A stretch of 64,000 bases of DNA. Origin: Bacilli bacterium. Its GTDB lineage: Bacteria; Bacillota_I; Bacilli_A; MAG-NZ. Below, piece by piece: positions 4,115 to 55,374 of the stretch (positions are counted from its first letter, which is position 1; the number at the start of each line of letters is the position of its first letter). Both the position numbers and the translations under genes were made by a program. Where the stretch lies: NCBI GenBank assembly GCA_018401215.1, contig JAGYLA010000001.1, positions 62,001 to 126,000 on the forward strand, read 5' to 3'. The notes below the pieces were generated by a model that made no database searches, was not told the DNA's origin, and worked only from the letters and a program-made list of their open reading frames with translations.

Positions 4115-4810
4115 ATGGCAAAGCTGACAAAAAACCTTCGCGCTGTGAAAGAAAAATTAGAACCTGGGAAATTGTATCCATTGGACGAAGCGGTTGGGTT
4201 GATCAAATCGTTATCGTTTGAAAAATTTGATGCAACGGTGGAACTTGCCATTCGATTGAATGTCGACCCCCGTCAAGCAGACCAAAACATCCGTGGTGCA
4301 GTTAGCTTACCGCATGGAACGGGAAAAACAACCCGTGTCTTAGTCTTTGCTCAAGGCGACAAGATCAAAGAAGCAAAAGACGCAGGTGCAGATTTGATTG
4401 GTGATGACGAACTGATTCAACAAATTCAAAAAGGAATCATGGAATTTGATGCGGTCATTGCAACGCCCGATATGATGGGTAAAATTGCGCCGTTAGGTCG
4501 AACATTGGGTCCTCGTGGACTCATGCCAAACCCTAAAACTGGGACCGTTACCAATGACATTACAAAAGCAGTTACCGAAGTAAAATCTGGGAAAATTGAA
4601 TACCGAAATGATAAAGTCGGTAACATTCAAGTCCCTGTCGGCAAAGTATCATTCAGTGCCGACCAATTAGCAGAAAATGCAAAAGCAGTGTATCAACAAT
4701 TAATCAAAGTGCGTCCGTCCACCGTCAAGGGGCTGTATGTATTGAATGCAGCAATGTCTTCGACGATGGGACCAGGAGTGAAAATCTCCTTCGACTCATT
4801 CGACAACTAA
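4115..4810 (+). CDS. rplA: 50S ribosomal protein L1
   Basis: 'GTVTNDITKAVTEVKSGKIEYRNDKVGNIQVPVGKVSF'; ATG 4115 preferred over ORF-track start 4070. Confidence 0.97.
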   Translation: MAKLTKNLRAVKEKLEPGKLYPLDEAVGLIKSLSFEKFDATVELAIRLNVDPRQADQNIRGAVSLPHGTGKTTRVLVFAQGDKIKEAKDAGADLIGDDELIQQIQKGIMEFDAVIATPDMMGKIAPLGRTLGPRGLMPNPKTGTVTNDITKAVTEVKSGKIEYRNDKVGNIQVPVGKVSFSADQLAENAKAVYQQLIKVRPSTVKGLYVLNAAMSSTMGPGVKISFDSFDN

Positions 4811-4908
4811 ATCAAACCAAAGACAGTAGGGGCTTACGCTTAATTATCCTACCGAGGACTATCGATCACTTTCCCTCTTTTGTCTTTGCAAAAGAGGGTT
4901 TCATTTTG
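4811..4908 (+). promoter_or_regulatory. Ribosomal protein L10 leader with attenuator hairpin
   Basis: 'CCAAAGACAGTAGGGGCTTACGC..ATCCTACCGAGG' L10-leader core; hairpin CCCTCTTTTG-TCTTTG-CAAAAGAGGG-TTTCATTTT at 4873-4908. Confidence 0.85.
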
Positions 4909-4924
4909 ATAAAGGAGGAACGCG

Positions 4925-5659
4925 ATGAACGAATCAATTCGTCAACAAAAAGTTGGACAAGTCACAGAACTTGTCGAACGGATTCAATCTTCTAAAAGTA
5001 TGATTGTAACCGACTACTTAGGCTTAAGTGTTGAACAGATGACCAATTTACGACGCAAGTTGTATGAGGCGGGATGTTCGATTGAAGTCATCAAAAATAA
5101 CATCACACGTCGTGCGGTGCAAGAAGCCGGATTCAATCAACTTGATGACCAACTCATCGGACCCAATGCAATTGCATTTAGTCAAGATGATGCGATTTCT
5201 GCGGCGAAAATCTTATATGATTTTTCACAAACAGCAGACAATCTAGAATTAAAAGCAGGAATCATTGATGGCAAATATGTTACTTTCGATGAATTACTGA
5301 TTTACGCTAAATTACCATCTCGTGAAACATTATTGACACAAATTGCTGCTGGATTACTCGGCACTGTTCGCGACTTGGCTGTAGCAATTCATTTGTTTAG
5401 TGAAATAGGCAATGAAGCCGCTACCCCAGAACCTGCCAAAGCACCACCAGCTCCTGTAACTGCTGCTGAAGAACCAGTTGTAGAAGCAGCACCAGCAGAA
5501 GTTGCTGAAGAACCAGTTGTAGAAGCAGCACCAGTAGAAGCGTCTGAAGAAGTCGCTGTAGAAACTGCACCAGAAGAATCCGCAGAAGAAGCAAGTGCGG
5601 ATGTCACTGAAACACCAGAAGAAGTACAAATCTCAGAAGAAGAGAAAAAGGAGGAATAA
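4925..5659 (+). CDS. rplJ: 50S ribosomal protein L10 with long acidic repeat-bearing C-terminal extension
   Basis: 'VTDYLGLSVEQMTNLRRKLYEAG' L10 core; C-terminal about 77 aa rich in A/E/P/V. Confidence 0.95.
   Translation: MNESIRQQKVGQVTELVERIQSSKSMIVTDYLGLSVEQMTNLRRKLYEAGCSIEVIKNNITRRAVQEAGFNQLDDQLIGPNAIAFSQDDAISAAKILYDFSQTADNLELKAGIIDGKYVTFDELLIYAKLPSRETLLTQIAAGLLGTVRDLAVAIHLFSEIGNEAATPEPAKAPPAPVTAAEEPVVEAAPAEVAEEPVVEAAPVEASEEVAVETAPEESAEEASADVTETPEEVQISEEEKKEE
5465..5581 (+). repeat. Three 39-nt in-frame tandem repeats inside rplJ
   Basis: Units 5465-5503, 5504-5542 (near identical), 5543-5581 (diverged): AEEPVVEAAPAEV / AEEPVVEAAPVEA / SEEVAVETAPEES. Confidence 0.9.
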
Positions 5660-54198: not shown

Positions 54199-54228
54199 TT
54201 GACCAAACCACATAAGCTTGCGTATAAT
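54199..54228 (+). promoter_or_regulatory. Promoter for riboswitch transcript
   Basis: TTGACC-N18-TATAAT. Confidence 0.65.
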
Positions 54229-54236
54229 GAATCAAG

Positions 54237-54395
54237 TTTGGTGACTGTTTTTACAGTCTGAAAAAGGAATTGGGTGCAATGCCCAAGCTGTCCCAGCAAC
54301 CGTAACATGGACGAAGACACATAAACCACTGCGTAACCCGCGGGAAGGGGTGTCCAAGGATGAAGTGGAGCCGGTAGACTTGCCAATCGACGTTT
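54237..54395 (+). promoter_or_regulatory. Cobalamin riboswitch
   Basis: 'GGAATTGGGTGCAATGCCCAAGCTGTCCCAGCAACCGTAAC...CCACTGCG...CCCGCGGGAAGGGG...GATGAAGTGGAGCCGGTAGACTTGCC' contains the cobalamin riboswitch core, including the B12-box-like AGCTGTCCCAGCAACCGTAA. Confidence 0.93.
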
Positions 54396-54441
54396 GATGT
54401 CTCCTGGGGATGGGAAATTCATCTTTTTTTGATGATTTTTT

Positions 54442-54476
54442 GTCCACGATTAGTTTGCGCGTGGACCATTTTTTTT
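54442..54476 (+). terminator. Likely riboswitch expression-platform terminator
   Basis: GTCCACG-N11-CGTGGAC then CA and eight T, before the lipoprotein ORF. Confidence 0.75.
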
Positions 54477-54502
54477 GGAGACAAGACATATGAGGAGAAT
54501 GG

Positions 54503-54874
54503 ATGAAACGATTACTTGTCTTGTCGCTATTATTATTTTTGACTGGCTGCATTGTTCAACCCACCGAAGCCCAGACTTGCATTGTGGTGGACGTCATTTA
54601 CGCAGAACAATCGGTCGAAGAATCGTTTGAATTGTGTGGGTCCACCAATTTGGTGGCGGATATTTTGAACGAGCATGCTGACACCTTGCAGTTAGAACTC
54701 ACGAGTTCTAGTTTTGGTGATTATGTCAGCGGCCTAGTGGGCTATAATTTTGAAACTCTCGGGTTGAATTATTTTTGGGAAATCAGTGTCAATGACACAA
54801 CTGCTGAGGTTGGCATTTCGGAATTGATCGTTGGAACAGATGACCGGTTGTTGTTTGAAGCGAGTCCGTATTAA
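54503..54874 (+). CDS. DUF4430-like lipoprotein (putative corrinoid binding)
   Basis: Lipobox 'FLTGC'; 'LNYFWEISVNDTTAEVGISELIVGTDDRLLFE' resembles the DUF4430/transcobalamin C-terminal domain; downstream of cobalamin riboswitch. Confidence 0.7.
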   Translation: MKRLLVLSLLLFLTGCIVQPTEAQTCIVVDVIYAEQSVEESFELCGSTNLVADILNEHADTLQLELTSSSFGDYVSGLVGYNFETLGLNYFWEISVNDTTAEVGISELIVGTDDRLLFEASPY

Positions 54875-55374
54875 TGAAAACCGTTAAGGATGTCGTTGTC
54901 ATTGCCTTTTTATCTTCGCTATTGACCGTCGGCAAGATTTCACTCGCCTCGGTTCCAAATGTCGAAGTTGTATCGTTTCTATTGATTTTGTATACCGTGG
55001 TCTTTGGCTGGCGATATGGCGCACTCACAGCGATTGTGTTTGCGACGATTGAGATCTTAATTTGGGGCGTTGGACTATGGACGGTCGGGTATTACTTTGT
55101 TTGGCCGTTGCTAGTCTTACTTGCTGCGATCTTGCCAAAAACCTTACAAAACATTTTTGGGTACACGATTCTAAGCGGTGGTTTTGGTTTGTCGTTTGGG
55201 TTGTTGTTTGCAATCTACACTGCACCGCTGACGAATGTGTCAATTTGGGTGTATTGGTTGAATGGCATCATGTTTGATGTGGTGCATATGATTGGTAACG
55301 TGGTCGTTATGGTTGTGTTGTATGTGCCAACACGCCGGGCATTAGAGTTTGTCGAAGAGCGACTTCAACGCTAA
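54874..55374 (+). CDS. ECF transporter S component (putative cobalamin/corrinoid)
   Basis: Six hydrophobic segments, 'VFGWRYGALTAIVFATIEI'; overlaps lipoprotein stop; under cobalamin riboswitch. Confidence 0.72.
   Translation: MKTVKDVVVIAFLSSLLTVGKISLASVPNVEVVSFLLILYTVVFGWRYGALTAIVFATIEILIWGVGLWTVGYYFVWPLLVLLAAILPKTLQNIFGYTILSGGFGLSFGLLFAIYTAPLTNVSIWVYWLNGIMFDVVHMIGNVVVMVVLYVPTRRALEFVEERLQR

Follow-up and report, generated by a model that had tools for sequence, protein, structure and literature searches.

A CbrS-CbrT-like gene pair under a cobalamin riboswitch in a Bacilli bacterium of the lineage MAG-NZ

The window analysed here is a stretch of 64,000 nucleotides from contig JAGYLA010000001.1 of a Bacilli bacterium genome (assembly GCA_018401215.1). 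At the locus under study, a cobalamin riboswitch precedes two genes on the same strand, referred to below as gene 1 and gene 2, which overlap by one base (TAATG). The features are given in window positions:

54199..54228, plus strand: sigma-70-type promoter-like site TTGACC-18-TATAAT, agreeing with 11 of 12 consensus positions (a match to the consensus, not proof of a promoter)
54222..54401, plus strand: cobalamin riboswitch aptamer (RF00174; 101.3 bits, E 3.5e-24)
54442..54476, plus strand: intrinsic-terminator-like hairpin with a T8 run, stem GTCCACG-11-CGTGGAC, the presumed expression platform
54503..54874, plus strand: gene 1, CbrS-like lipoprotein with DUF4430, 123 aa (PF14478, 27.1 bits)
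54874..55374, plus strand: gene 2, CbrT-like ECF transporter S-component, 166 aa (6FNP match, S-component fold)

The aptamer was recovered at full length (model positions 1-189) against a gathering score of 31.5 bits for RF00174, and it is the single cobalamin riboswitch in the genome assembly (795,877 bases, 61 contigs, 78.6% complete). The search thus confirmed the riboswitch recognised in an earlier sequence-only reading of this DNA. That reading had started the feature at 54199; a promoter-like match does lie there, but 54199 is the -35 box, and the aptamer itself begins at 54222. The terminator-type platform it had placed at 54442-54476 was also present, as a hairpin at 54442-54466 with a 7-bp stem (-9.3 kcal/mol folded alone, z -2.8), followed on the 3' side by the T8 run at 54469-54476. 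The automatic terminator scan overlooked this hairpin on account of its loop, which exceeds 8 nt. Several relatives that share this arrangement also have a hairpin, of different sequence and followed by T residues, between the riboswitch and the first gene, as in L074 (AACTCACAC..GTGTGAGTT-T7). This recurrence indicates that the expression platform is likely of the transcription terminator type. The fold of the whole region, comprising riboswitch and platform, was no better than that of shuffled sequences (z -0.53); therefore, no antiterminator pairing is claimed.

The product of gene 1 carries a lipobox (LTGC, by inspection) and a DUF4430 domain scoring above the Pfam cut-off of 23.8 bits for PF14478, which bears out its earlier description as a small secreted lipoprotein. 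Its relatives likewise have an N-terminal hydrophobic segment or lipobox. A profile was built from 22 proteins encoded upstream of S-components, 19 of which match DUF4430. Searched against the PDB, it retrieved RUMGNA_00854 (3u7z, E 4.7e-15), annotated as a 'putative metal binding protein', as the closest solved bacterial relative; no publication naming RUMGNA_00854 or 3u7z was found in a literature search. The same profile gave weak matches to the C-terminal domains of transcobalamin and intrinsic factor (E 0.02-0.9). The AlphaFold model of gene 1 was of modest confidence (pLDDT 63), and the top PDB entries found with it by Foldseek were the transcobalamin structures 5np4 and 5no0 (E 2.5e-4 for the 5np4 beta domain, TM about 0.34-0.45). 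These matches agree with the transcobalamin-like character proposed earlier for the domain. DUF4430 is the C-terminal domain of vertebrate B12 binders (PMC4350170), and the transcobalamin beta domain has been crystallised alone with cyanocobalamin bound (PMC5599065). Since the best match of the predicted fold of gene 1 is this cobalamin-bound beta domain, corrinoid capture is plausible, and it appears to be the most likely role of the lipoprotein. A likeness of the DUF4430 protein to thioredoxin was rejected, the single-sequence PDB matches concerned being insignificant and taken as chance.

Gene 2 matched Pfam ECF_trnsprt at E 3.3e-6, with a score a little under the Pfam cut-off. In a single-sequence phmmer search of the PDB it matched CbrT, the cobalamin S-component (6FNP chain A, E 3.1e-12), and a profile of 23 S-component relatives retrieved 6FNP as the sole match (E 1.7e-24). 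As a control, the second S-component of the genome, which is FolT-like, matched structures of the folate S-component FolT instead, so the PDB search separates S-component families. In the AlphaFold model of gene 2 (mean pLDDT 76), six main helices are seen; Foldseek matched it meaningfully only to ECF S-components in the PDB, among them RibU, PanT and ThiT (probability 0.85-1, though E > 0.1). The six-helix S-component read earlier from the sequence was therefore upheld, as was its assignment to cobalamin and not to another vitamin family. Identity to CbrT of Lactobacillus delbrueckii is about 25-27%, and in the tree gene 2 groups with its relatives in a separate clade, sister to that of Lactobacillus CbrT; the corrinoid preference of its product could therefore differ. 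A first scan of genome contigs with the window S-component as query found nothing, and a plasmid tblastn search gave no match.

The remainder of the system is encoded elsewhere in the genome. EcfA1, EcfA2 and EcfT are encoded at C1:42257-44834, which is 17 kb upstream of the window and apart from the S-component gene, and more than one S-component is present, as in group II ECF transporters. Accordingly, the gene pair supplies the substrate specificity of a group II ECF transporter, rather than forming the minimal unit proposed earlier. The uptake route suggested with it, cobalamin import by a group II ECF transporter, is supported by the CbrT homology and by the EcfA1-EcfA2-EcfT genes. A B12-dependent ribonucleotide reductase (NrdJ) is encoded on contig 12 (1307.8 bits against a cut-off of 854), and contig 8 carries a gene for a PduO-type adenosyltransferase; no PduO-type matches were obtained in the three family relatives searched. 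A FecCD/BtuC permease, the PF02310 B12-binding domain and QueG were not found in the assembly, which is about 79% complete.

The pair was compared with the CbrS-CbrT system of lactic acid bacteria. In L. delbrueckii, the gene cluster is reported as nrdJ-cbrS-cbrT-pduO, CbrT binds cobalamin and cobinamide, and the ECF-CbrT complex transports its substrate (eLife 2018, PMC5997447). According to the same report, ECF-CbrT without CbrS transports B12 with nanomolar affinity in proteoliposomes and also functions in E. coli, and isolated CbrT is unstable without ligand. Lactobacillaceae cbrT loci were fetched using the L. delbrueckii CbrT sequence as query. The gene directly upstream of cbrT was a DUF4430 gene in L066, L068 and L071 (66.6-74.2 bits). 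In L066, a locus of the L. delbrueckii type, NrdJ, CbrS, CbrT and PduO are encoded consecutively, and CbrS matches PF14478 at 74.2 bits; in L069, a second short ORF separates a 65-bit DUF4430 gene from cbrT. The L066 contig is labelled Faecalicatena absiana and is probably mislabelled or contaminating, given the 98% identity between its CbrT and the L. delbrueckii protein and a gene order that follows the published one. In L067 (L. delbrueckii DSM 20074), the frames of at least 80 aa listed upstream of cbrT (about 4500-4980) include no intact cbrS, and an aldo-keto reductase gene occupies the place expected for nrdJ, possibly owing to gene decay or local rearrangement. A proteomic study of Lacticaseibacillus rhamnosus lists an 'Additional lipoprotein component of putative cobalamin ECF transporter' and also mentions a DUF4430 protein adjoining rtpR (PMC9963975); the two are presumably one protein.

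Like the L. delbrueckii system, the window encodes a secreted DUF4430 protein followed by an S-component in the same gene order, and its genome holds the shared group II ECF module together with NrdJ and PduO as users of the vitamin. In contrast to L. delbrueckii, the window pair has a cobalamin riboswitch to itself, and nrdJ, pduO and ecfAAT are located elsewhere; searches of the Lactobacillaceae loci detected no such riboswitch. The lipobox is absent from the L066 CbrS but present in the window protein and in three other Lactobacillaceae homologues. The sequence-only reading had considered a lipoprotein working with an S-component to be outside the textbook architecture. It is, however, the arrangement of the published CbrS-CbrT pair (PMC5997447), and the lipoprotein has already been annotated as a transporter component in the L. 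rhamnosus data (PMC9963975). The architecture is thus already known, as a prediction, and the window pair is a new example of the CbrS-CbrT transporter set of lactic acid bacteria, not a new kind of system.

A survey of 149 relatives yielded 59 S-component matches in 58 genomes. For 39 of the 59, a same-strand cobalamin riboswitch lies no more than 6 kb upstream, against a chance expectation of about 0.1 of 59 (a rough estimate, from about one riboswitch per 1.8-Mb genome); DUF4430 is encoded directly upstream of 26, and both elements accompany 21. The co-occurrence of DUF4430 and S-component genes under cobalamin riboswitches, for which a survey had been proposed, is therefore widespread. The window and six nearer relatives (G000, G002, G070, G031, G052, G020 and G042) all carry riboswitch, DUF4430 gene and S-component gene in this order, which was found in many families of the class. 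Genomes with DUF4430 and genomes with the riboswitch shared 42 members (Fisher p 6e-17, kinship ignored). The more distant matches among the 59 (e.g., G050 and G032) form a different subgroup and lie beside EcfA-like genes. Two relatives show a direct link to B12: in L005 the S-component gene overlaps that of PduO, and in L011 the S-component is fused to a BtuR/CobO adenosyltransferase.

Taken together, these features are very probably explained as a CbrS-CbrT-type uptake operon repressed by B12. Judging from the class and anatomy of the riboswitch, scarce cobalamin would permit read-through of the terminator, and both proteins would be made. CbrT, as the membrane S-component, would bind cobalamin and join EcfA1-EcfA2-EcfT for ATP-driven import, a step predicted from homology to the experimentally proven CbrT of L. 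delbrueckii. The lipid-anchored CbrS on the outer face would most likely bind corrinoid in the manner of the transcobalamin beta domain and may raise its concentration at CbrT, which is the least certain step. The imported vitamin would then be adenosylated by PduO and used by NrdJ. Because the published CbrT transports B12 without CbrS (PMC5997447), CbrS would not be essential for transport, and its role is one that we infer.

The part played by the lipoprotein may be read in two ways. It is quite possible, though somewhat short of probable, that the lipid-anchored transcobalamin-beta-like domain catches B12 and passes the corrinoid directly to the S-component, acting as a substrate-binding protein for an ECF transporter, and that the DUF4430 proteins of relatives, including two-domain lipoproteins of about 400 aa, form a bacterial transcobalamin-like family. 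Alternatively, the lipoprotein may bind no B12 and serve as a structural or regulatory partner, such as a lid or stabiliser, of a CbrT that binds the vitamin alone. CbrS-independent binding and transport by CbrT and the instability of the ligand-free protein, which a partner could relieve, are both reported for L. delbrueckii (PMC5997447) and are consistent with such a role, as is the lack of a DUF4430 gene directly upstream of some S-components of the group. The presence of DUF4430 as the C-terminal domain in vertebrate B12 binders (PMC4350170), the predicted fold of gene 1, closest to the transcobalamin beta domain, and the crystallisation of that domain alone with cobalamin (PMC5599065) nevertheless speak for binding, and the non-binding partner appears possible but rather doubtful.

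The remaining alternatives concern the substrate. Import of another corrinoid or precursor, such as cobinamide, instead of or besides complete B12 is unlikely: the B12 users of the genome require the complete adenosylated cofactor and give no reason to prefer a precursor, even though L. delbrueckii CbrT is described as also taking cobinamide (PMC5997447) and the window S-component falls in a different clade. That the S-component serves another vitamin and owes its place under the riboswitch to chance or to some indirect cause is very improbable. The Pfam ECF_trnsprt match by itself names no substrate, but CbrT is the only solved S-component matched in the sequence searches, and the cobalamin riboswitch and B12-gene neighbours recur across families, so this reading is close to refuted.

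Returning to the CbrS-CbrT-type uptake operon, gene 1 resembles the beta domain of transcobalamin and intrinsic factor in predicted fold (at the modest confidence of the model), weak profile similarity and extracellular location. Unlike transcobalamin, it is bacterial, lipid-anchored and without an alpha domain; therefore, sub-picomolar clamping between two domains is not expected. BtuG and BtuH of Bacteroidetes are surface lipoproteins that catch B12 for a transporter, as proposed for gene 1, but they are set apart, going by their descriptions, by other domains and an outer membrane setting; the C-terminal B12-binding domain of BtuH is unlike other known structures. A btuH homologue of Firmicutes near a predicted ECF cobamide transporter has been reported (PMC8941943). 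BtuCDF also imports B12, but it is a different type of transporter.

The class thereby gains another small-genome lineage with this known, functionally half-characterised B12 uptake pair, and the profile and fold evidence supports kinship of the cobalamin ECF lipoprotein with the human B12 carriers, through their beta domain. Were the direct hand-off true, it would be an exception among ECF transporters, which as a rule do not require a separate binding protein, and would provide a bacterial transcobalamin counterpart open to direct study.

Several further arrangements were observed in the relatives. In L101 (genome G001, of the same family), genes for an ATPase, a permease and a Peripla_BP_2 (BtuF-like) protein at 288-2960 adjoin the cobalamin riboswitch, downstream of it, in place of CbrS-CbrT, the transporter type being swapped under the same switch. 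In L011 (1471-2544) and L012 (1468-2541), read with TGA as Trp, a CbrT-like S-component and an ATP:corrinoid adenosyltransferase of the BtuR/CobO type (PF02572, 174.6 bits in L011) form an in-frame fusion. TGA codons occur inside the S-component frame in these genomes, and the fusion lies directly 3' of an apparent B12-dependent ribonucleotide reductase gene; a single protein would thus combine uptake and adenosylation. Extra lipoproteins of about 400-480 aa are encoded in the riboswitch operons of L092 (395-1618), L093 (1307-2752, minus strand), L095 (1217-2458, minus strand), L096 (403-1602) and L097 (858-2222, minus strand). Each combines an N-terminal DUF4430 with a conserved domain, about 280 aa long, for which neither Pfam nor the PDB gave a match. 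By analogy with transcobalamin, this domain could be an alpha-domain partner; sequence searches for a transcobalamin alpha-like domain in these proteins gave no support. Elsewhere in the window, a ribosomal protein L10 leader (RF00557, 72.9 bits) was detected at 4799-4913, an ordinary regulatory leader.
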